In this document: one piece after another, positions 1,732 to 17,464 of the stretch | How the letters are laid out: every line of letters starts with the position of its first letter | Position numbering within the stretch: position 1 is the stretch's first letter | Assembly (NCBI GenBank): GCA_016098155.1 | Contig: JAAAJB010000602.1 | Coordinates: 1 to 20,925, forward strand | Reading direction: 5' to 3' | DNA from: Actinomortierella ambigua | Taxonomy: Eukaryota; Mortierellomycota; Mortierellomycetes; Mortierellales; Mortierellaceae | DNA length: 20,925 nucleotides | Made by a program: the position numbers and the translations under genes | Notes under the pieces: generated by a model | The model's database searches: none | Told to the model about the DNA's origin: nothing | The model's input: only the letters and a program-made list of their open reading frames with translations

Positions 1732-4670
1732 ATGACAGACAAATTGCGCGTAGGAGTCCTCACCAGTAAGAACTCGCTGCTCCAGTGCAGCCAAAGGCAG
1801 CTGCTGGATATCACCGCTCAGCCTTTTGTTGACCTCACTCTCGTGTGACCAATACTCTATTTTTTTCCCATCACCCAGTTAGCGATACTGCATCGACGGA
1901 TCCGGCAGCAGATGCCAGTGGCCCAGCCCTGTGCAGGCTCATTGAGGCTGAGCCCCGATTCACCGTCGAGACGACGGCGATCATCCCGGACGACTTTAAG
2001 AAGATTCAAAAGACGGTGACCGCTTGGTGCGATGATCTCGATCTGCACCTCGTCCTCACTACAGGTGGAACTGGCTTTGGTGTTCGCGACTGCACTCCGG
2101 AGGTATGGTGGCATTATCCTCGTATGGATCCATGGGAAAAGCCTTTATGCACTAGGAAAACAATGGGAAAGATTTTCATTCTGCTCTACTAGTAGAGGGA
2201 GGGGGTATCATGGTGTACCTCTTTATGAGTCATCTGTACGGTACGGATACACTCACTACATACTGAACAGAATTTTTTCTTACATGTATTTTTTTATTCG
2301 CGCATCCGTCTGCGGTGCATAATACTACTCGCATTACCACTCTAGGCTGTTCAACCTCTGCTCGACCGCCTCACGCCTGGCATCACACACTTGATCTTTG
2401 CAAAGTCGATTGAGATTACGCCATTTGCTGCATTGTCTCGCGCCATCTCGGGTATTCGAGGCAGGACCGTGGTGCTGACTTTCCCCGGAAGCCCCAAGGC
2501 TGTCAAGGAGAATTTCGCGGCAGTAGCGAAGATGCTACCGCATGCGGTTGATCTCGCATGCGGTGGCACAGGCAAGAAGGTGCACGAGAAAATGCAAGGA
2601 GGCCCCCGACCATCAGGAGCCACTGCTGGTAGCGATCAAGCTGCTGTAAGTGGTAGTGCAACAGGACATCACCATCATGGACATGGTCATGGACATGGTC
2701 ATGGAGGACATACCTGCTTCCACCATAGTGACTCTGCTGCCAAGGCAGGAGCACAGTCTTTAGGCTTGGATACACCAGGTAAGAACGCAGAAGGAAGACC
2801 ACAGTCGATTCAATGGAGTAGGAATATGTTAAAAAAAAACAAAGGAAAAACAACAACAGCATAAAAAGACTCATCTATTGTCATCGATGTCACTTTTTTT
2901 TTAATTTCCTCCGATGAATTCTCTGTGTAGTGGCCAAGCGCTTGCGCCATTCTCCATATCCTCTCACACCGATGGACAAGGCGCTATCAACAGTCATGGA
3001 TAAGGCTGTGCCGTTGGATTCTGTGCGCATGCCTGTGAGTGAGGCTCTAATTGGCTATATTCTGGACGAGGATGTAGTTGCTGTTGAGGCAGTACCTGCA
3101 TACCGTGCTTCTATACTTGATGGTTATGCCGTTATCGGTAAGAGCCTTGTCATAGTACATATTTGTCATGCTCTAGTGGTTGATTGATTGTTGAAGTAGC
3201 TCACACTCTTTTCACTGTCTGATAGATACGGATGGACCTGGAGAGTATCCTGTAACGGCAGTTTCCATCGCTACTGCAAACGAGGAAGGTGCCAAGGGAC
3301 AAGTCCGCCTGGCACCCGGTCAGATTGCCCGTATCACGACGGGAGGGGCACTTCCCGAAGGAGCGACCGCTGTCGTCATGGTAGAGGATACCTTGTTGAT
3401 CAAAGCGTCCGAGGATGGCACAAAAGAAGAGGTTGTCGAGATCCGTGCCAAGGTGCGCCCAGGCGAGGCTATTCGTGAGATTGGCTCCGACATTCAGATA
3501 GGGCAAGTAGTCTTGAAGAAGGGGCAGATGATTTCGGCGATTGGCGGAGAAATTGGCGTCATGGCTTCGATCGGCGTCAAGGAGGTCCTTGTCCGCAAGC
3601 GCCCCACGATCGGATTTCTGTCGACAGGCAACGAGGTCGTCAACTTTAATAGCCAGGAGACACTCAAGCCTGGTCAGATCCGCGATAGCAATCGCCCGAC
3701 TTTGATGGCTGCTACAAAGGCTGCTGGGTTCAACCATGTTGACCTTGGTGTTGCTCCTGACACGTAAGCAGGAATATTGATATGATGTGACTGAAGATTC
3801 TTTACAACTTTACCACCCGAAAGTTCTACTAACTATTCTTGAAAAATGGTGTTGCTACTAGTCCTGAAGAGCTTGAGGCAGCTATCAAGAAGGGATTCGA
3901 TCAATGCGAAATTGTCGTGACTACAGGAGGCGTTTCGATGGGCGAGATGGATCTTCTCAAGCCCATCCTCGAACAAAAGTTGGGTGCGACCATTCATTTT
4001 GGGCGCATCATGATGAAGCCAGGGTAGGTGTCTTTGAACCGAACTTTCCTTTTTTTTTTTGGAGACCAGATCGGATAGAAACAGACTGTTACTGACCTTA
4101 ATTTCTTTTCATTATTACATTGGATACAGAAAACCAACAACATTCGCGACAGTGCCTCGTGACGAGGGCCGTGCTCCACGGTTGATGTTTGGTCTTCCCG
4201 GTAACCCAGTGTCGGCCACTGTGACGTTCAACCTCTTTGTCTTGCCGGCACTCCGCAAGATGGCTGGTTATGAGCGTTACAGCTGGCCTAGTATCCAAGC
4301 TGAGGTAGGAGAGAGGAGCCATCCCATCGTAGTCGTCATACGGAAAAAAAATTGACGTAATTTACAGCACACCTTGCCTCCTCTAACTTTGCGCTTTCCA
4401 ATTTTTATTTTTATATTTATATTCTTATTGTAGCTAATGCATGACATCCCTCTGGACGAACGCCCAGAGTACCAGCGCGCCATTGTTTCAGTGAACAGCG
4501 ACAATGGCGGCTTGGTTGTGCAGTCTACAGACAGGAATCAGATGAGCAGCCGCTTGGTGACTATGCTTGGCGCCAACGGCCTCCTTGTTCTGCCAAGCCG
4601 CACCCAAGACCGCAGGGTTGTCACCAAGGGCAGCAAGATTGAGGTGCTGCTCATTGGGCCGTTGAACTAG
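1732..4670 (+). CDS. Gephyrin-type molybdenum cofactor synthesis protein (MogA-MoeA fusion), eight exons
   Basis: This bifunctional enzyme carries out the last steps of molybdenum cofactor synthesis. The G domain adenylylates molybdopterin and the E domain inserts molybdate. The exons join in phase: 1732-1765, 1879-2102, 2346-2778, 2931-3137, 3226-3763, 3862-4023, 4130-4304 and 4434-4670, giving 669 aa. The N-terminal G domain (about residues 5-165) shows VGVLTISD, TTGGTG (near 72) and RDCTPE. The C-terminal E domain (about 231-669) shows [40 protein letters not shown] and [16 protein letters not shown]. The G-then-E order matches animal gephyrin and fungal CnxE/Nit-9 rather than plant Cnx1. 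Between the domains lies a histidine-rich linker. In fungi the cofactor serves nitrate reductase and other Mo enzymes in the cytosol. No frameshift or missing key motif was seen. Confidence 0.95.
2664..2730 (+). repeat. Histidine-rich linker between G and E domains
   Basis: Near residues 193-215 of the gephyrin-like protein the sequence is [15 protein letters not shown], then HTCFHH. It is encoded by a GGACATGGTCAT repeat. The run contains more than ten His and one Cys and lies in the linker that is least conserved across this family. It could bind Zn or Cu, but binding is inferred from composition only. Confidence 0.9.
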
Positions 4671-5773: not shown

Positions 5774-7924
5774 TTTCTCTCTTTATCTCGTTTTCCTCTC
5801 TCTTTCTCTATCTCTCTCGATAGACGTCATGAGAGAAAGTTCAAATAGGCCAGTGCAGCCCCCCATGCACTCGTTTCCCTCTCAATCGCAGGCACACCAG
5901 AACATGGTGGCCTCACAGTATCCAGGTGGTCAGTACCCTGGCTACCCTGGCTACTCTAGCCACCCTGGCCACCCTGGCCACCCTCCTTCACAAGTGTATG
6001 TGAGCCTGTTCTCTCTCTTTGACGTCATTGAAGACGATGGTGATGAGAACCTGGGTCGTTCCGCCACCAAAAAAATTTAATCTGGGACACTTTTTTTTAA
6101 TCTCCACACTAACCCGTAGTCGATATTTCCATGTTTCAACTATAATAGTTCATACGACCACGCACCACCGCCTGCGTACGACATGAACCAGCGCCCATTG
6201 GCTGACGTGGGTGACCTGAGGGCACTCAGTTTGCCCGACTCGAACCAAAACACCATTCCCGACTTTTCGCGCGTCGGCTACCGTGAAGGATGTGCTCGCA
6301 TCCCTCTCGTCCCCGTCCAGATGGTCCTCCAGCCCTCCAATAACCCTGCCGTCGATGACACGGAGAGAATCCAGCATGCGATTGACTATGTCGCCAAACT
6401 ACCCCTGTTTCCTATGGGCAACGACGGTGCTCAAGTCCGAGGAGCTGTACTCTTAAAGGCCGGTACATACCGAGTCGCTGGCGCGATCATCATCAACGCC
6501 TCGGGTGTCGTCCTCCGCGGCGAGGGACAGGACCATGATGGAACGACCATCGTTGCGACCGGTAAAATCCAGCGCGACTTTATCCTCGTGAACGGCATAC
6601 TCACCTCGGATATGGGCACGGTCGAGAAGCAGCATCAGTTGGCCAGGAAGAGCGAGATGATGCCTCGGAACGGATACAAAGGATGCAAAAAGTCTGCGAC
6701 ATACACGCGCCAGGGGCTTTATATTCCTGTGGGTACCGTTCACTTGCCTGTCGACTCTGTCCAGGGTTACCATGTGGGCGAGGAGATTGTGATTGAGCGA
6801 CCGGGAACGGACGAGTGGATCCGTGACATTGGCATGGACAATCTTCCACCACGACCGAACGGGCAGCCGTCGGTACCGTGGTCGCCCTCGACATACACCT
6901 TTCGGTTTGAGCGTCGCATTGTGGCGATTGATGTGGCCACCAATACGTTTGTTCTGGACATTCCGATGGTGATGTGCTTGGACCCAAAGTACCCGCCGGC
7001 GCGTGTGTTTGGATTGGTCTACAAACTGCCGATGATTTCGGATGTCGGGGTTGAGAACCTTCGGCTGATCAGCGAAACAAACTCTGCCAAACCCGAGGAC
7101 GAACAACACGGATGGTATGCAGTCGTGATGGACAATACTGTGCATGGCTGGGTGGCCGATGTGACCACACAGCGGTTTGTCAGTGGCATCTTTGCCAGTC
7201 TGTGGTCGCGCTATGTCACGATTCAGGACTGTGCAGTTCTCGACCCGGTCTCAAAGCCAACCGAGGGTGGTCGCCGGTACCAGTTCAACCTCAGTGGTCA
7301 GAAGGGGCTCGTCAAGCGCTGCTATACCGAGAATGCTCGTCATGATTTTATTACCCTTGGTCGTGTCTGTGGTATGTCCTCTGTCTTTCTCTCTAGTTTC
7401 CAATTCGTCTATTTAACGATCGCTCTTGTGAATCTCACTTTTTACAATCATTTTTTTTCTTCTTCTTCTTCTCCTTCTTTATTGTAGGTCCGAATGTGTT
7501 TGTGGACTCGACGGGTGTCAATGGCAACAACGATACGGGACCACATGAGCGGTGGGCGATGGGAATCCTGTACGACAACATTACGTGTTCGACAATCAAT
7601 ATTCGGCAGCGGTCGTGGATGGGGTCTGGACAAGGGTGGGCGGGCGTGTTCCATGTTGTGTACAACTGTACGGCAACGATGAATAATAATTGTTTCCAGA
7701 ATCCGCCTGGGGCGACCAATTGGATTGTTGGGTTCTGCGGAGGGATGACGCGCAAACCGACGTTTGATGCACCGTTGGCCATATGTCATTCGGTCAACAC
7801 GCGGGTCGAGCCACGGAGCCTGTACTGGGCACAGCTTATCCGGCGCATGAACAATGATGTGCAGTATGTCAAGGCGAATGCGGGTGCTGAGGCGCGCAAC
7901 AACTATGGCCCGCGGCATCCTTGA
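5587..7924 (+). CDS. Right-handed beta-helix (pectin-lyase-like) protein, no visible signal peptide, four exons
   Basis: Exons 5587-5644, 5824-5995, 6149-7371 and 7488-7924 join in phase to give 629 aa. Residues 1-90 form a disordered N-terminal part: an amphipathic start (MSFEQIGKRAGLAIGNYVRN), then Pro/Tyr/Gly/His-rich repeats. From about residue 110 the protein resembles the pectate-lyase-3 / pectin-lyase fold. It has AVDDTERIQHAIDYV (a DDT-IQ-AID pattern near residue 140), GAVLLKAGTYRVAGAIII and GVVLRGEGQDHDGTTIVATG. Later rungs are rich in Asn, Val and Ile. The closest family impression is bacterial and fungal beta-helix proteins of unknown substrate, and no catalytic residue can be assigned. 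Polysaccharide lyases and hydrolases are usually secreted, but the N-terminus has no hydrophobic signal segment. The protein may therefore be intracellular, non-classically exported, or start at an exon I missed. It is convergent with the tail-tube gene, with 225 bp between the stops. Confidence 0.85.
5729..5830 (+). repeat. CT-dinucleotide-rich microsatellite inside intron 1 of the beta-helix gene
   Basis: A long CTCTCT run with T-rich interruptions fills most of the 179-bp intron (5645-5823). It supplies a very long polypyrimidine tract just before the acceptor at 5823. Length variation here could affect splicing. Confidence 0.85.
5914..5990 (+). repeat. Tandem YPG/HPG repeats in the N-terminus of the beta-helix protein
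   Basis: Residues about 50-75 read QYPGGQYPGYPGYSSHPG, then HPGHPP. They come from repeated 9-12 bp units (CCTGGCTAC, then CCTGGCCAC). Such Tyr/Pro/Gly repeats occur in flexible, self-associating or membrane-associated N-termini, for example some annexins. No partner can be assigned from sequence. Confidence 0.8.
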
Positions 7925-8149: not shown

Positions 8150-8566
8150 TCATTGCGACGGCGTCACAGTTATGCTCGATGCCGTAAGACACAGCTCGTC
8201 GATGGTCGCCTCTTCACTCTGGGCATCAAGGCCGGGCGCACTCAGACAGGTTGAAAAGGCATCAACGAGATTCCACGTCATGTAGACGTTGTCTTCTGAT
8301 GTGCCGATCAGATAGATTGCAGTGTCCCTCTTTACCGCCGCGCCTGAAGACATCCAGTCATAGAAACCGGCCTGACCACGGAAAATGCCTTGTCTGAGAG
8401 CGATGGTCGGCGGGACCTTCTTGCCGGGCATCTGATATGGCCCACCCATTCCATCTTTGTAATCGATAGTCTCGGATACCATGTCCAGGCCTGTGGCGCT
8501 CTTGAATGGGATCACTTCATCGCCAAGTGAGAGACGAAACCGATACTCGGAAATCTGAGTAGACAT
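8150..8566 (-). CDS. Phage / contractile-injection-system tail-tube protein (T4 gp19-like family)
   Basis: This is an uninterrupted 138-aa gene with an ATG at 8566 and a TGA at 8152-8150. The layout matches the gp19 / TIGR02241-type tail-tube family, which forms stacked hexameric rings of phage tails, pyocins and injection systems (Afp1/Pvc1 type). It has an N-terminal strand pair EYRFRLSLGDEVIPFKSATG, then LDMVSETIDYKDG and a loop with a PGKK turn. These are followed by TIALRQGIFRGQAGFYDWMS, the central strand pair AIYLIG and VYMTWNLVDAFS, and the closing APGLDAQSEEATIDELCLTA. Members are usually 140-165 aa, so this copy looks full length. There is no signal peptide or membrane segment. An in-frame GTG at 8620 is a less likely start. 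The flanks are plainly fungal and a 5' UTR intron is predicted, so the gene appears nuclear. No sheath, baseplate or ATPase gene is in view. Family assignment is by pattern recognition, not a search. Confidence 0.85.
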   Translation of the reverse strand: MSTQISEYRFRLSLGDEVIPFKSATGLDMVSETIDYKDGMGGPYQMPGKKVPPTIALRQGIFRGQAGFYDWMSSGAAVKRDTAIYLIGTSEDNVYMTWNLVDAFSTCLSAPGLDAQSEEATIDELCLTASSITVTPSQ

Positions 8567-8579
8567 TCTTATGGATAAT

Positions 8580-8676
8580 CTGAGAATACATATGCATAAG
8601 CTGATGAAGTTAGCGCGCACGCTGTTGGATCGAGGATCATAAAATGGTTCACGGGAGATATGAGACGGCGACTCAC
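8580..8676 (-). other. Predicted spliceosomal intron in the 5' UTR of the tail-tube gene
   Basis: On the minus strand a near-consensus donor (CTG|GTGAGT, intron starting at 8676) is followed by a fungal-type branch site (GCTAAC, 8614-8609). An acceptor (TTCTCAG) ends at 8580, 13 nt before the ATG. The intron would be 97 bp. No ATG occurs in the roughly 80 nt upstream of the donor, so it would be non-coding leader. This is the main sequence-internal sign that the gene is transcribed as a eukaryotic gene. Confidence 0.6.
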
Positions 8677-9518
8677 CAGTGGTTCTTACAGGAGTGAAAG
8701 ATGCGACTGGGAGGGAATGGTGTAAAGTGAGAAAGTGAGAGATCGGAAAGGGAAGATGGCATTTTATAAGATCCAGGGGCCTCTGACAGGAGTGAGAAAA
8801 AAAAGGCTTTCGTGTCGTTCCCCCTTCCTTCTGGCATGCAGAAAGAAGTGGACACAGGGGGTGCGGACCCTTGAATTATTCTTTGTCCACTCTTTGCTAC
8901 CGCTAGACAAAAGTCCCATGCTGCCCACACCACCTCAACAGTCGACTCGGATGTTCTATTCGAATTAAAAAAAATGGGATCAACAGCACCTGCTTACTGG
9001 TCGCTTTTCTAGCAGGGCGTATACATTGTCAAGTTGTGACGCAGAGGACAGCAGACGCAGCAAGAGGCAAGAGCAGATGCTCTAAGTGCCCAGCTTGTTA
9101 GTCGTAAGACACTAGTAAAAGCCAAGGTCGCAGCAGCAGCAGGGAAGGAGAGCAGGCGAAGCACGAAGTAAGAGCTGGTTAATGCCAGCTGCCCGTCTCA
9201 GGAAACAGGCAGCGCGTAGAAAAGAGCTTGTACAAGCAAGCAATCTACACAGGGGGGTGCGCTAGATCGTGTCAGTCATGTGATCGAAGGTGGCCTTATG
9301 AGACAAAGCTCAGGCACACAAAGTGCTCTCGTGCACTTTTTTTTTTGGGTCTGCTCCCCCATCAGCTTGCCAGGACGACTTTCTCTTCCACGCACACATT
9401 CCTCACCCACCTTCCATTTCACCGCATAGACACTCCAGGGACCAACAGAGACATCGCGAAACAACAATAACAGCAACAACAATTATATACCCTTCCTCGC
9501 CCCACCTTCTCCTCCTGA
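8677..9518. promoter_or_regulatory. Divergent intergenic region between tail-tube and dynactin genes
   Basis: About 840 bp separate the leader of the minus-strand tail-tube gene from the dynactin ATG, so both promoters must lie here. I saw no open frame with coding character. A motif ACACAGGGGG(G)TGCG occurs twice (8852-8865 and 9247-9261). The region just before 9519 is rich in CAA/ACA and pyrimidines, typical of a fungal 5' leader. No RNA gene was recognised. Confidence 0.5.
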
Positions 9519-12500
9519 ATGGCAACCAACTCTGGAGCTGCCACCGACTTTGAAGTTGGCACCCGCGTCGAGGTGGCCGGAGGCAATCAGGGCACTGTCC
9601 GCTTTTCAGGCACCACCGCCTTCGCAGGTGGCAGATGGGTTGGCATTGAGCTCGACCTACCGCAAGGCAAGAACTCGGGTGTCGTCGCCAACAAACGCTA
9701 CTTTGAATGCAAGCCTGACCATGGACTGTTTGTGCGGCCCTCCCAAGTTCGTGCCATTGATGATGGCCCTCAGGTAATAATGGCATGAGGCCTTTGCATG
9801 CGTGTGCTTTTTGGTGGTGGTGGTGGTGGGAGCTCCTCCTGTCTCTGTCAAGCTGTATATGCGTACTCGCCCATGTACCATTCTAACATGACCACCACAT
9901 ATGTTTCACGGCACATATTATTTAGGGCTCGACTGCAACACCACCAGCAACAGCGACAGCATCAGGACGGACCTCACGCCCTGCATCCATGGTAGGACGT
10001 ACGCAAGGTGCATCGACGGCAGCAGGCCGAATGGCGACTCGGACGGGTACTTCCGCGTCTGGAGGACCAGCTGGCGCTGGAGGAAGCACCTCTAGCTCTC
10101 GTGTGGCGGCGGCCACCTCACGCCCTGCCTCACGCCGCACCAGCACTCTTGAGCCCCAGTCAGATGCACCAGCCCGTGTCCGTGTCGCTCCTTCGTCTTC
10201 GTCAGCAGCCGCATCGTCCGCACGTGCGATTGTGGGCGGAGGAGCAGCAGCAGCAGCAGCGCGAGGAACAGCAGCACGAGCAAGGGCGACCTCGACCTCG
10301 TCACCCACGCCCACCCCTACACCAGTCGTTATCCGAGGACGAACCGAGCTCGAGTCTTCGACCCCGAGCACGCCAACAGTCGCTCAGCCTCCACCCGCCG
10401 ACTTTCCATCCTCCTCCTCCTCTTCACCATCGCCCTCACCGACACCACCACCACCACTGCCACCGTTGTCGTCATCGTCGTCATCATCGTCTCGCCAGCC
10501 AACTCCTGTTCAACAGCATCAACATCACCCAAGCGAGTTATCATCGTCGACGCTCGAAGATATCCACGAGTCGTCGCAACTGGCGCGGGATAGCCCAACT
10601 CCAAGCGAGCCAGAGTCTGTAAACAGTGGCAAGGCAACGCCGCCACCCAACTTTGCACCAAAGGCACCGCCTGCTGCAGTCTCTCTACCAGCCCCAGCTC
10701 CACCACGCTCTCAGCTTTCTTCTATGCCCTCGGGGATTCCCTTGGTTGGCGGCGGTGGTGGTGTTGGAGCGACTGGCTCCTTGCTCGTTGCTCCCAAGGT
10801 GATGCACCAGCAACAACAACAACAACAACAACAGCCGCCCTCACTGGCATCCTTGGGACCAGCTCAGCGGATGGAGGCAAGCGTGCCACTCAAGGACTAT
10901 GAAGAGTTGCGCATCAAGCTTCGCATCCTGGAGGCGAAGCGAACAGAGGACCGTGAGCGGCTTAAGGAAGCGGAGAGAATCAAAGAGGAGTCCGAGCAGT
11001 TTCAGTCCATGCGACCCAAGCTTCAAGGTAAAGAAAAAAAAAACCAAAAAAAACCACATCGAAAAAAAGAATGGTTACGATAGTCATGAGAAGAGGAAGG
11101 GGAGGAGAGAGAAGGGAAGTGAGGGGGGGGGGGAAGGGAACATTTCAAGGAGGATGAGGCCGCTCTTCTCTTCTTCCATCCCTTTCTCAACTATGATCTT
11201 CCAACGTCACTCAACTGAATGACCCTTTTTTTTCCTGGTCAACCTTAATCTCGAAACAAACTAGCCAAGTTGGCTGAAATGCAGCAGGAGCTCCGGGATG
11301 CTAAGCGTGCGCTGAAGGACGCTGTTTCGGATAAGGATTCGTTCGAGGGCAAGTACAACGATACCCTCGACTCGCTCGAAGTGGCGTTGCTGGACAAGGA
11401 GATGGCGGAGGAGAAGGCCGAGACACTTCAGCATGAAGTCAACACGCTCAAAGAGAAGGTGGAGGAGCAAACGGTCGACCTACGTGTTCTTCAGAACGAA
11501 GATAGTAAGTGCGCTACCAGGACTTTTTTCACATGCTCCGCCTTTTTTTTGTTTGTTGCAAGGTAATTGTATCCAATGGCTGAAGATGACCAACACAAAC
11601 AAACAAACAAAAAACGTTCTGTTCATTAGGTGGCACGGCTGGCATGGACGCAGTCCGTGCAGTGCAAGTTGAGCGTCAGAATGAACGTCTTCAGGAGGCC
11701 CTCATTCGGTAAGCATATAGCGTTGGCTGACCCTTTTGTGTAACCACCCCCCCCCCAATACGCCCTCGAAAGGAAGAGAGAACAAACACTGATTCCCCGA
11801 TTCTCCATTACTGCCTCTTCCCCCATGTCCTTTCTCTAATATTCTAGCCTGCGAGATGTCACCAGTGAACAAGAAGCCGAACTGCAGCGCAAGATCCGCA
11901 ACCTGGAGCGCGAGGCGTCGTCCTTGCAAGAAGTGCAAGCCGAGAATGAAAAGCTCAAGGAGAGTGTCGAGACGGCGGAGAACCAAATCGAGGACCTGAA
12001 GCAGCGGCTGGACGATGCGATCGGGGCCGAGGACATGATTGAGCAGCTCTCGGAGAAGAACATTTTGTTGACGGAAAAGGTCGAGGAGCAACAGGCCGTG
12101 ATTGACGATCTCGAGGCCCTTAAGGAGCTGAACGATGAGATGGAGGAGGCCCATCAGGAGAATGCCAAGCAGATGCAGGCCGAGATCAATCTCAAGGACA
12201 CCCAGTTGCGCGAGCATCAGAAGCGGATCGAGGCCCAAGAGGAGAGCATGGCCGATTACGAAAACACCATCCTTCAATTCCGCGAGTATGTGGCGACGTT
12301 GCAGGCCGATCTTGAACAGATGCGCCAGCGGGAAGAGGCGAGACAGGCGGGGGCCAATGGTGGTGCTGGTACTGGTGGCGCTGGTGGTGTAGGCGGCATA
12401 GGCACGCAATCACAGGCAATGCTGAGCTTGAACCTGCAGCTACAGTCGACGGCGATGAAGGCGCAGGCCAAGGCGATTGATCTGGAGCTGCGCAAGCTGG

Positions 12501-15185
12501 ATGCGTTGCAGGCGAACGATAACCTGCAGCTGGTGCAGCCGTACCTGCCGGAACGGTTCTTCAAGACGGAGAATGACTCGATACAGTGTTTCCTGTTGTT
12601 CAAGCGGCTGGCGTACAAGGCGGATCTGATGATCAAGCATCTGGAGCAGCAGTACAACATTGCGGAGAAGATTGTGCAGACCCAGGTCCCACAGGAGCTG
12701 GTCGCGACCTGTGAGGTCCGTCAGAGGCTGGCATGGTTCGGCGATCTGTCGAAGCGCTTTGTGTCGTACATTGAGGGATGTCCCGTCGAGGTGTTTGGCA
12801 AGATGGGACAGGTCTACCATGACCTGTTGGGCACGGAGCGACGACTGGACAACTGGGTGAGTCTGTTACGGAAGGAGGAGCTGAACGAGACCGAGTGTGT
12901 GGTGGATCTGAAGCGGGCGATTTCGCAACTGGATCATCTGGCCGAGACATACCTGACGGCGACCAAGTTGGATCTGGCGGATCGGTACTATGGTACAGCG
13001 AGAGCACTGGACCTGAACCTGGATCGCATGGTGGTTAACCTGTCGACGGTGAACTCGATGCTGGCCCAGCGGGAGGATGGGTTCCGAGTCGTGGACACGG
13101 ACGATGTGCAGTACCAGTTGACCCATACGTTGATGGCGCTGGTGACACAGGCCAAGTCTGGAAAGGTAGCGACGCGCAAGATCCTGCGTCGGTTGGACGA
13201 GTTGGCTGCGCAGACGATGGTGGTCCCGTCCGAGTCGCTGTTGTCGCAGTACAGGAATGTGTCGCAGGCGTCGAGCAAGTTGGGCGAGTTTACGTACGAG
13301 TTTATCCGTAGCATGCTCACATATATCCGCCAGCGCCGCGAGGGCTCGTCGACTGCAGAGACGATCCAGGTCACGATCGCGAATGTCACCGATGCTCATT
13401 TGGGCGTGAGCGAGACGAGCATGTTGGACGGATGCCGCAAGCTGCTGAATGGGTTGTTGCAGGATCTGTCTAGCTTGCTGGAGGGAATCTTGGAACCGGA
13501 TGTTGCTACTAAGGGTATGTCTTGTTTTTTTTTTGGGATATGTGCAAATATCACTGGTTCTGTTATGGTACCACGATTTTGTTGGTACTTACTCCTGTCT
13601 TTCTCCTCCTTCTTCCTCCTCTGTGATTATACTGAAAAAAAAATGCCATCTAGTGACAAAGGCTGAAAAGGCGTGGGTTCTCCGTGCCAAGGACATCAAG
13701 GCCGAGGTGGTGGTCAACACGGATGCCGAACAAAAGGCACAGTCGCTGCAGGATCAGGTGCTTAAGCTGGTCAAGGACGCCAAGCTGAAGGACCAGGCGC
13801 TGCAAGAATCCAATGTCAAGATTGATTTGTTGAACAAGAGGATGGAGACGTTTAAGAAGCAGGCAGAGCAGATCTCGTACCTGGACCAGAACATCGACAA
13901 GGCAAAGTCACAGGAGAAGGCCTATGAAGAGCTGATTCAGAATCTGCAGACAGACATTGCAGACATGCAGCAGGAGAACGCACAGCTGAAGCGTGCGCTG
14001 CGCAAGACGGAGAACCGCGGCATGATGTCCTCCTTGAAGCGACCAACGGTACCGGGTGTGCCTGGAAGCCCAGGCAGCACGGTTGCCGGCGCAGGACCGG
14101 GCAACGGTAGCACCGGTAGTCTTGGAGGCTCGATGATTCTGGGCGGGCTCGATCAGGATGGCATGGTCGTTGGTGGTGTATCGAGCTTGAGTCTTGTGAG
14201 CGCGGACGGTCTGGAGAACCTGCCGAGCCGGGAGCTGTTGGTGCAGATGGAGTCCCTCAAGGCGGCCCTCCGGTACGTTCGGTCGGAGAATGCGGCGCTT
14301 CGTACACGGGCGGCAATGCAGGATCTGGGTCTGTCGAACGACATGTCCCTGTTGCACTTGCCACTGAGCCAGGTGCACTTGGAAGGCACGGCCTATGCGC
14401 TGGCCGAGTCTGCAGCGACGCAAAAGGAGGACGCGCGGATGATGGAGACGATTGCCTCGCTGGTCGCCAAGAAGAAGGCTTCCACCGCCGAAGCTTCCTC
14501 CTCTGCGGCGTTGGCAAGCATTCGAAGTGGATTTACCAGCAGTGGTAGGGGTGGACTGACCAAGGCAGAGGAGCTAAAGGCGGTGGCACTAGAGAGCAGA
14601 AAGCTGCTGCGAGAGGCCCGATGGGTGTGTGCATCGCCCAAGGTGGTGGACTTGACGCTTTCGCGCCAGGCTACTTTGGCGGCCGTGGGTGAATCTTTGC
14701 CTATGGCCACAGCACCAACGACAGAGACCGAAGACGCCGCCTCTTCCGCGTCGGCGAAGACATCTGCCGTGGATGGCTCGGCAAGCAAGCGGCCAGCACG
14801 CTGGCAGTCGTTGCAGACACGGCCTGAGTGGCAGTACCACACACAACAGGCGGTGCTGACGACGATTGGGAAGCGCAGTGTGGAGTTGCGTGAGAAGCTG
14901 GCTCGCTTGTCACGACCGGTGGCTGGTAGCAGTGGCAGCAGCACCGCCAACACGACCACTACACTGATGACGACGACGACGACAAAACTCCAGAAACTGT
15001 CGACCGTGGTGAGCGAGAAGCCGATTGCGCGTGTTCGGTTCCCACCGTCGATGAGTGCGCTCTGTGGACCTGTTGCTGGACACAATGCTGATGGTGATTC
15101 ATCAAAGGCTCTGCGCAAGGACCTGAGCGTGTACCTAAAGAGTCCCCACGAATTTGAAGCAGTTCACAACCTGTTTGTGCGATAG
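9519..15185 (+). CDS. Dynactin subunit 1 (p150-Glued), six exons
   Basis: This is the largest dynactin subunit, which links cytoplasmic dynein to microtubules and cargo. Exons 9519-9773, 9926-11027, 11265-11504, 11630-11708, 11848-13514 and 13654-15185 join in phase to give 1624 aa. Residues 12-78 are a CAP-Gly domain (VGTRVEVAGGNQGTVRFSG, then GGRWVGIELD, GKNSG, GLFVRPSQV). Residues about 86-400 are Ser/Pro/Thr/Ala-rich and basic, with a short polyQ near 380, matching the usual microtubule-binding basic linker. Residues about 404-726 form the first coiled coil (AKLAEMQQELRDAKRALKDA, VQVERQNERLQEALIRLRDV). From about 750 comes the conserved dynactin region (NLQLVQPYLPERFF, ADLMIKHLEQQY). A second coiled coil spans about 1115-1240 and a low-complexity C-terminal part ends at the TAG. 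The CAP-Gly loop is GKNSG, not the usual GKNDG. A run of six glycines separates the first coil from the dynactin region. Confidence 0.95.
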
Positions 15186-15977: not shown

Positions 15978-17464
15978 ATGGCCAAGATTGTCATTACCTC
16001 CAACAAGGTCCTCCGCACCCCTGCTCAGCCCGCGGCGCCTGGCACCATTATTGTCGACAAGGCCACTGGCAAGGTTGTCGAGGTGCTGGACACTGTCAAG
16101 GCTCGCGCTGACTTTTCTGCTGATCAGGTCACGTCCGAGCAGGACTTTGTCCAGGCCGGCGACCTGGTCGTCATGTCGGGTGTTGTCGATGCCCACGTTC
16201 ACATTAACGAGCCCGGCCGTACGGACTGGGAGGGCTTCTACACAGCCACTCGCGCTGCTGCTGCTGGTAATAATTGGGCGACAGGAAGAAAGAGACTAGG
16301 ATAGTTCAGGGCATGGGAAAGAGCAATTGCTAACCCTCTTTTTTTTATTTTTGCCTCTCTCTACTACTAGGTGGTGTGACGACGTTGATTGATATGCCTC
16401 TCAACTCCATCCCCCCTACAACGACCGTGGAGAACCTACATATCAAGACGTCAGCCGCCAAGGGCCAGGTGCATGTGGATGTAGGCTTTTACGGCGGTGT
16501 GATCCCCGACAACGCCGAGGACCTGATTCCGCTGGTCCAGGCTGGCGTCAAGGGCTTCAAGTGCTTCATGATCGAGTCTGGCGTGGACGAGTTCCCCTGT
16601 GTGAACGAGGCCGAGATTGCGGCGGCGATGAAGAAGTTTGAGCAGACAGACTCAGTCTTTATGTTCCACGCCGAGCAGGACTGTGGCGACATTCCAAAGC
16701 CTGAGGGCATGGACCCCAAGGCCTACAACACCTTCCTGCACCAGCGCCCCCAATTGCTCGAGACCAACGCCATCCGCACCATCATCCGCCTGATGAAGGA
16801 CCACCCCAAGGTCCGTTGCCACATCGTTCACCTGTCGGCTGCCGATGCCCTGCCCATGATCCGCGAGGCCAAGGCCCAGGGCCTGAAGCTGACCGTCGAG
16901 ACCTGCCCACACTACCTGTCGTTGAACTCGGAGGCCGTCCCCGACGGTGCCACCCAGTACAAGTGCTGCCCCCCGATCCGCGAGGACGAGAATCGTGACA
17001 AGCTGTGGGCGGCGTTGAAGGAGGGCACGATCGACTATGTTGTCTCGGACCACTCGCCCTGTGTGGTCGAGCTGAAGCTGATGGAGGCCGGTGACTTTGT
17101 CGGTGCTTGGGGCGGCATTGGCGGCCTGCAGTTTGGCATTCCCGTCGTCTGGACAGAGGCCCGCCGTCGCGGCTGCACGATCCAGGATCTCAACAAGTGG
17201 CAGTCGTTCAACACTGCTCGTCAGGTTGGTCTGCGTGGCGTCAAGGGCTCGATCGAGGTCGGTTGCGATGCCGACTTTGTCGTCTGGGACCCCGAGGAGA
17301 CCTTTGTCATCCGCGAGGAGATTATCGAGTTTAAGAACAAGGTCACCCCATACATGGGCCGCACCTTGCATGGTGTTGTCAAGGAGACCTATGTTCGCGG
17401 ACAGCGTGTCTGGAAGGCTGGCCAGTTTACCTCTGACAAGCCCCTGGGCAAGCTGCTCCTGTAA
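15978..17464 (+). CDS. Allantoinase (allantoin amidohydrolase), two exons
   Basis: Allantoinase hydrolyses allantoin to allantoate, letting a fungus use purines as a nitrogen source. Exons 15978-16266 and 16371-17464 join in phase (intron GTAATA...CTACTAG) to give 460 aa, the normal length. The start ATG lies in GCCATGG, a strong context. Amidohydrolase metal-site motifs are in order: [17 protein letters not shown] with the HxH at about residues 73 and 75, GVKGFKCFM with the probable carboxylated Lys near 160, MFHAEQD with His near 196, HIVHLS with His near 250, and SDHSPC with Asp near 323. The [17 protein letters not shown] and VSDHSPC forms favour allantoinase over dihydropyrimidinase or dihydroorotase. 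No signal peptide is seen. The gene is strongly biased to G/C-ending codons, which suggests good expression and creates long antisense open frames. Confidence 0.95.

Follow-up and report, generated by a model that had tools for sequence, protein, structure and literature searches.

A tube gene between two intron-bearing fungal genes

The window analysed here is the whole 20,925-nucleotide stretch of contig JAAAJB010000602.1 from a genome assembly of the soil fungus Actinomortierella ambigua (GCA_016098155.1). Its minus strand carries a single, intron-free open frame that runs from an ATG at 8566 to the end of its stop codon at 8150 and encodes a 138-residue protein, which we assign to the inner tubes of contractile injection systems of the eCIS type. 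A sequence-only reading of the same DNA had placed an intact frame for 138 residues at 8150..8566, and position, length, and ATG-to-stop integrity are as it described, but the strand had to be corrected to minus: frame 1 of the plus strand is interrupted by stops over this interval, and all of the motifs quoted for the product are recovered in the minus-strand translation.

The same reading put the gene between a beta-helix gene and dynactin, both intron-bearing, and exon mapping agrees. On the left, on the plus strand, is a pectate-lyase-like beta-helix gene with two introns (exons 5865-5995, 6149-7371, and 7488-7921, mapped with protein P0003); on the right, also on the plus strand, is a dynactin p150-type gene with a CAP-Gly and a dynein-associated domain (9519..15182, stop codon excluded; six exons and five introns, mapped with P0123, which is DFQ27_007619 of A. 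ambigua and is 100% identical where it was searched). The interval from the tube gene to dynactin contains a diverged interspersed repeat (9037-9214), 74-76% identical to at least four other places in the genome (C397, C13, C46, and C468), beyond which we found no sign of a transposon carrier near the tube gene. The window contains no Rfam family above gathering score and no tRNA. Elsewhere on its plus strand, open frames at 2391-3767 match MoeA_N and MoCF_biosynth (the latter below cut-off in one frame) and mark a molybdenum-cofactor gene, perhaps of gephyrin type; by Pfam, 16376-17464 holds an amidohydrolase-family gene, perhaps a dihydropyrimidinase.

Family membership and predicted fold

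Membership of the gp19 family, as first claimed from the letters alone, is borne out by Pfam PF06841 (Phage_T4_gp19), which the protein matches at 63.2 bits (E 2.8e-17) against a cut-off of 28.2; a chance origin of this match is negligible. The second profile named at that stage as a check, NCBIfam TIGR02241 (conserved phage tail region protein), was matched less well: 55.5 bits (E 5.1e-15), short of the 62.4 set as its curated cut-off. The CIS5 inner-tube adaptor profile (NCBIfam NF053770) gave 37.7 bits, far under its curated cut-off of 260, and PHROGs gave a weak tail-tube match (E 0.013). Among the nine distinct PDB sequences found at E <= 1, the closest are the PlPVC1 tube (9qgl, 2.9e-31), Afp1 (6rao, 7.3e-29), and Pvc1 (6j0b, 1.2e-28), followed at about 2e-10 by the Anabaena (7b5h) and Algoriphagus (7adz) tubes.

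Aligned with 26 bacterial tubes, to which it is 36-47% identical, the fungal protein keeps 19 of the 25 columns that are invariant in the bacterial rows, and 31 of the 45 that are at least 90% identical there. Tail-tube subunits assemble as hexameric rings that stack. The remaining 14 of these 45 conserved columns are altered, and the fungal protein lacks about the first 9-14 residues and, behind the helix, 3 more, so that it may or may not form rings.

The predicted single-chain model (mean pLDDT 80.1, pTM 0.74) has the tail-tube beta-barrel, and the structural comparison that the sequence-only reading had proposed matches it to the solved eCIS tubes Pvc1, PlPVC1, and Afp1. In Foldseek, the top 8 of 638 matches to the model are contractile injection system tubes, the best six at E <= 1.3e-11 with TMq 0.69-0.72.

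The locus in other assemblies

The genome holds one tube match in its 33.8-Mb assembly, a draft of 846 contigs. A single-protein search of about 5.8 billion proteins yielded just one relative among six candidates: DFQ26_008895, from a second A. ambigua assembly, which is 93% identical and annotated as a 'hypothetical protein'. The beta-helix protein has its best match in DFQ26_008896 (P0003); the two DFQ26 genes bear consecutive tags, and both are recorded with a 13913-base contig. A search for orthologues at the same locus, suggested at the outset, has therefore found a tube gene adjoining the same beta-helix gene, an agreement that covers the beta-helix flank; no dynactin of A. wolfii or DFQ26 is among the 120 of 346 dynactin matches listed. 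The protein searches covered the tube, a beta-helix exon, and dynactin, and more distant relatives of the tube may exist in other fungi.

In a third assembly, BGZ73, the dynactin (BGZ73_006963, P0124) and beta-helix (BGZ73_006964, P0004) genes are both recorded with a 19338-base contig, and their consecutive tags suggest that no annotated gene separates them. BGZ73 may thus have an empty tube site, or perhaps an unannotated gene there. Its beta-helix protein diverges by 13% across the 396 residues that were searched. BGZ73 is labelled A. ambigua; both neighbouring proteins differ by 12-13% over the parts searched, so that it may be another species.

An assembly artefact, or a bacterial contaminant joined to fungal DNA, is a further conceivable account of the gene, and the draft state of the genome leaves some room for it, but we regard it as very improbable and largely refuted: i) intron-bearing fungal genes lie on both flanks, in one contig; ii) the second assembly has the same neighbour with a different tube allele; iii) neither FtsZ_C (PF12327) nor Bac_DnaA (PF00308) has a match in the assembly, each being positive in 13 of 14 control genomes; and iv) no bacterial protein above about 47% identity to the fungal tube was found. 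A contaminant contig was rejected on the first three grounds.

Bacterial relatives and possible donors

Of the phrase 'phage or injection-system tail tube', with which the sequence-only reading summed up the protein, the tail-tube family stands but the phage tail does not, since the protein groups with eCIS inner tubes of the Afp1/Pvc1 type. Phage origin was rejected, a tblastn search with the tube having matched none of 50,697 phage records. The viral_contigs set gave 36 matches, 35-47% identical to the fungal tube (one locus, L076, reaches 47%); many are more than 93% identical to Photorhabdus or Serratia eCIS tubes, and we take these matches, judging from their sequences, for eCIS clusters sorted as viral. 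A single-protein scan of the same set returned nine stretches, none a relative. Plasmids gave 46 matching records among 72,556 at E <= 1e-5, mainly from Serratia (32), besides Chromobacterium (4) and Mycetohabitans (3), and 84,980 prokaryote species genomes gave 62 matching loci, all bacterial by title, the best being 46% identical (Dyella choica).

A tree with bacterial tubes, another of the analyses initially proposed, places the fungal pair inside the eCIS tubes, on a 49-row branch (support 100/98) whose named members are nearly all proteobacterial. This tree has 60 rows, 55 further hits having been dropped (near-duplicates more than 93% identical, and one weak hit), and is rooted at the midpoint only. 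The two fungal tubes pair at 100/100 and are nested among proteobacterial eCIS tubes within a 37-row clade (94/86), where the fungal branch, 1.45 changes per column long, joins an open fork; in a rebuilt tree, the pair joins loci L076 and L061 with support of 26/0. Topology tests on groups named after the first tree had been seen did not reject grouping with Mycetohabitans tubes (p-AU 0.181) or with Dyella, Pluralibacter, and Shewanella (p-AU 0.461), but did reject a placement of the pair with Bacteroidota and cyanobacteria (p-AU 0.0014). An endosymbiont donor, as in the Mycetohabitans grouping, is allowed by these sequences. With this nesting, the intron-bearing flanks, and the DFQ26 locus, the horizontal transfer into a fungal nuclear genome that was originally proposed is upheld.

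Downstream of the tube gene, Mycetohabitans endofungorum strain B3 has, among others, three sheath genes, a second tail protein, baseplate V, and gp25, the three sheath genes standing in a row (L002, 12470-16303). Two further Mycetohabitans strains (L003, 7371-7793; L004, 7371-7793 and 9627-10295) have a transposase gene directly upstream of the tube gene, and the sheath gene that comes first behind the L004 tube gene is annotated at 669 bases only, which suggests that the cluster has been remodelled. Five loci (L051, L054, L062, L066, and L104) each carry two eCIS tube gene copies about 0.7-3 kb apart.

Divergence between strains

Between the window's tube (assembly tag DFQ27) and that of DFQ26, 10 of 138 residues differ and no gap is needed; nine of these differences can be explained by single-nucleotide changes; the beta-helix proteins of the same two assemblies differ at 1 of 596 (Fisher p 3.9e-7). 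Of the 50 columns with at least 85% identity across the 26 bacterial rows, none is touched by the 10 tube changes (P 0.0135). The avoidance weakens at stricter thresholds (P 0.024 at 90%, 0.054 at 95%, and 0.153 at 100%), and at laxer ones a single change hits at 80% (P 0.030) and two at 75% (P 0.085). Less targeted tests of the substitutions are weak (mean column entropy, p 0.20; profile probability, p 0.064).

How large the excess is depends on how constrained the neighbour is taken to be. The N-terminus of the beta-helix protein evolves fast (30 of 56 residues differ from BGZ73, versus 77 of 540 elsewhere), and after scaling by this region the tube still exceeds expectation (P 0.0009 or 0.0025); if unconstrained sequence is instead assumed to run at k times the neighbour rate, P is 0.0001 for k=2, 0.011 for k=5, 0.11 for k=10, and 0.39 for k=20. 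The signal of positive selection varies accordingly, and it is drawn from the protein sequences of two strains. We read these sequences as suggesting that the tube evolves fast, possibly under positive selection, while its conserved core is spared.

Two other accounts of this divergence have to be considered. The first, which we rate as quite possible if short of an even bet, is that the gene is a passenger: a real and recent transfer from an unsampled, divergent bacterial donor, now unused and drifting, whose frame is open for lack of time. The many differences in the tube beside the single one in its neighbour are what drift might produce, and the excess loses significance at the tenfold rate; nor is the open frame much of an objection, for only 3% of mutations would create stops in the tube gene, making it weak evidence for constraint. 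Against drift stand the avoidance of conserved columns at the 85-95% thresholds, the rate above that scaled from the neighbour's fast N-terminus, and the absence of any indel between the two tubes.

The second, which overlaps the explanation that we prefer, is that of a fast-evolving functional gene under diversifying selection in conflict with bacteria. We consider it improbable; in such a conflict the protein might act as a decoy, disturb the contractile tubes of bacteria, or keep endobacteria in check. Bacterial eCIS are assembled inside bacteria, where a fungal protein would not meet their parts, and the rate excess on which diversifying selection would rest vanishes if the neighbour is strongly constrained. 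In its favour, that excess comes with an untouched conserved core; M. (now Actinomortierella) ambigua can host Burkholderiaceae-related endobacteria (one of one isolate; PMC6307997); and eCIS-related genes of Streptomyces are reported to affect competition with fungi (PMC8505568).

Upstream signals and codon usage

On the minus strand, a TATAAA box (8763..8768), a consensus match only, lies 202 nt before the ATG and is followed by a pyrimidine-rich stretch. Downstream of it is a candidate 97-nt 5′UTR intron (8580..8676, minus strand) with a GTGAGT donor (8676-8671), a branch-like CTAAC from 8613, and a TTCTCAG acceptor that ends 13 nt before the tube ATG. The search pattern for this arrangement of donor, branch, and acceptor was written after the sequence had been seen. 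When the 300 nt upstream are shuffled 3000 times with dinucleotides preserved, 0.27% of the shuffles contain it, and 0.07% do so with an acceptor no more than 40 nt from the ATG; of the real 300-nt stretches on each strand of the window, 4 of 413 contain it. All seven introns mapped here are longer (116-237 nt), and their donors are GTATGT (three), GTAATA, GTAAAG, GTAAGT, and GTAAGC, none of them GTGAGT; given this and the post hoc pattern, the 97-nt intron is a candidate only. Such signals nonetheless speak against an unused passenger.

Codon usage points the other way. The tube gene has a GC content of 53.2% (GC3 60%) versus 58.3% (68%) for the other coding exons of the window that were used, and its codons fit those of host genes poorly (-2.7 nats, with 2 of 36 overlapping host segments lower). 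Poor codon fit and restricted distribution both favour the passenger account. They also count against the explanation that we prefer, as do the weak untargeted substitution tests and the atypical donor and length of the candidate intron; the restriction is to two strains of one species, through the single relative among six candidates.

A lone tube gene in the fungus

It is well supported that the eCIS tube gene of A. ambigua is real, lies in the nuclear genome, was acquired horizontally, and stands alone. The sheath (PF04984) has no match in the genome (3 of 14 control genomes were positive), nor has the gp25-type baseplate (PF04965; 2 of 14 positive); the Pvc16_N tube terminator (PF14065) has none there or in any control genome. 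Contraction requires the sheath and gp25 baseplate genes, for which these searches came up empty, so the fungal tube is not a complete injector.

The explanation that we prefer is that a CIS1/Afp1/Pvc1-type inner-tube gene passed from a proteobacterium into the nucleus of the A. ambigua lineage, inserting between the beta-helix and dynactin genes; that a eukaryotic-type promoter of its own would drive its transcription there, the 5′ leader probably being spliced; and that the product would be a 138-residue cytosolic protein with the tail-tube fold, most likely assembling unaided into hexameric rings or short tubes. Lacking sheath and baseplate, it could not be a contractile injector but would probably be used as a self-assembling ring or tube, which might, for example, act as a scaffold or a carrier, or play a part when the fungus meets soil or endohyphal bacteria. 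As a whole, with expression, ring or tube formation, and an own promoter all included, we hold this explanation to be somewhat better than an even bet. Its observed parts are the family, the predicted fold, the nuclear location, the shared neighbour in a second assembly, the one copy, and the failure to find sheath and gp25; transcription, the 5′UTR intron, selective maintenance, cytosolic location, ring formation, and a use for the protein are inferred.

We wish to stress that a role in encounters with bacteria is a guess, if the most interesting one because M. ambigua can carry Burkholderiaceae-related endobacteria. A fuller version, in which the fungus would have domesticated the subunit to form rings or nanotubes in its cytosol, with a fast variable surface and a fixed core owing to conflict or partnership with bacteria in or around the hyphae, seems to us unlikely. 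If a fungal nucleus does carry such a gene, intact and integrated, a eukaryote would be seen to be able to take over one self-assembling part. Among the open-licence PMC papers listed (titles and the beginnings of abstracts), none reports a eukaryote-encoded eCIS tube.

Comparison with known systems

Transfers of bacterial genes to Mortierellomycota are described, for example NOD-like receptors from Mycoavidus (PMC11291939). Like the one proposed here, these are inter-kingdom and concern the same phylum; no tail-tube case was found there, and the words 'phage' and 'contractile' are absent from its main text. Self-assembly by one subunit also has a precedent: a single siphophage tail-tube protein is reported to form long tubes in E. 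coli as well as in S. cerevisiae when no other phage protein is present (PMC6466441), and this precedent, taken with the conserved columns that the fungal protein keeps, is why a cytosolic ring or short tube would be expected of it, although the tube that assembled in yeast is a siphophage tube and not an eCIS tube.

The fungal tube shares the general fold predicted for it with T4 gp19 phage tail tubes and T6SS Hcp, but these have weaker Foldseek E-values than the eCIS tubes and, in the rows of the structural comparison, are only about 6-17% identical, versus 37-40% for Afp1, Pvc1, and PlPVC1. It is these last three, Afp1 (6rao), Pvc1 (6j0b), and PlPVC1 (9qgl), that it resembles in both sequence (E 1e-28 to 3e-31) and predicted fold; unlike them, it sits in a eukaryotic nuclear genome in which no sheath or gp25 gene was found, and it has nothing that corresponds to the first ~14 residues of Afp1. 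The eCIS tube of Mycetohabitans endofungorum, a Rhizopus endosymbiont, is 40-42% identical and belongs to the same family; in strain B3, however, the tube gene stands in a cluster with sheath, baseplate, and gp25 genes, whereas the fungal tube gene stands alone.
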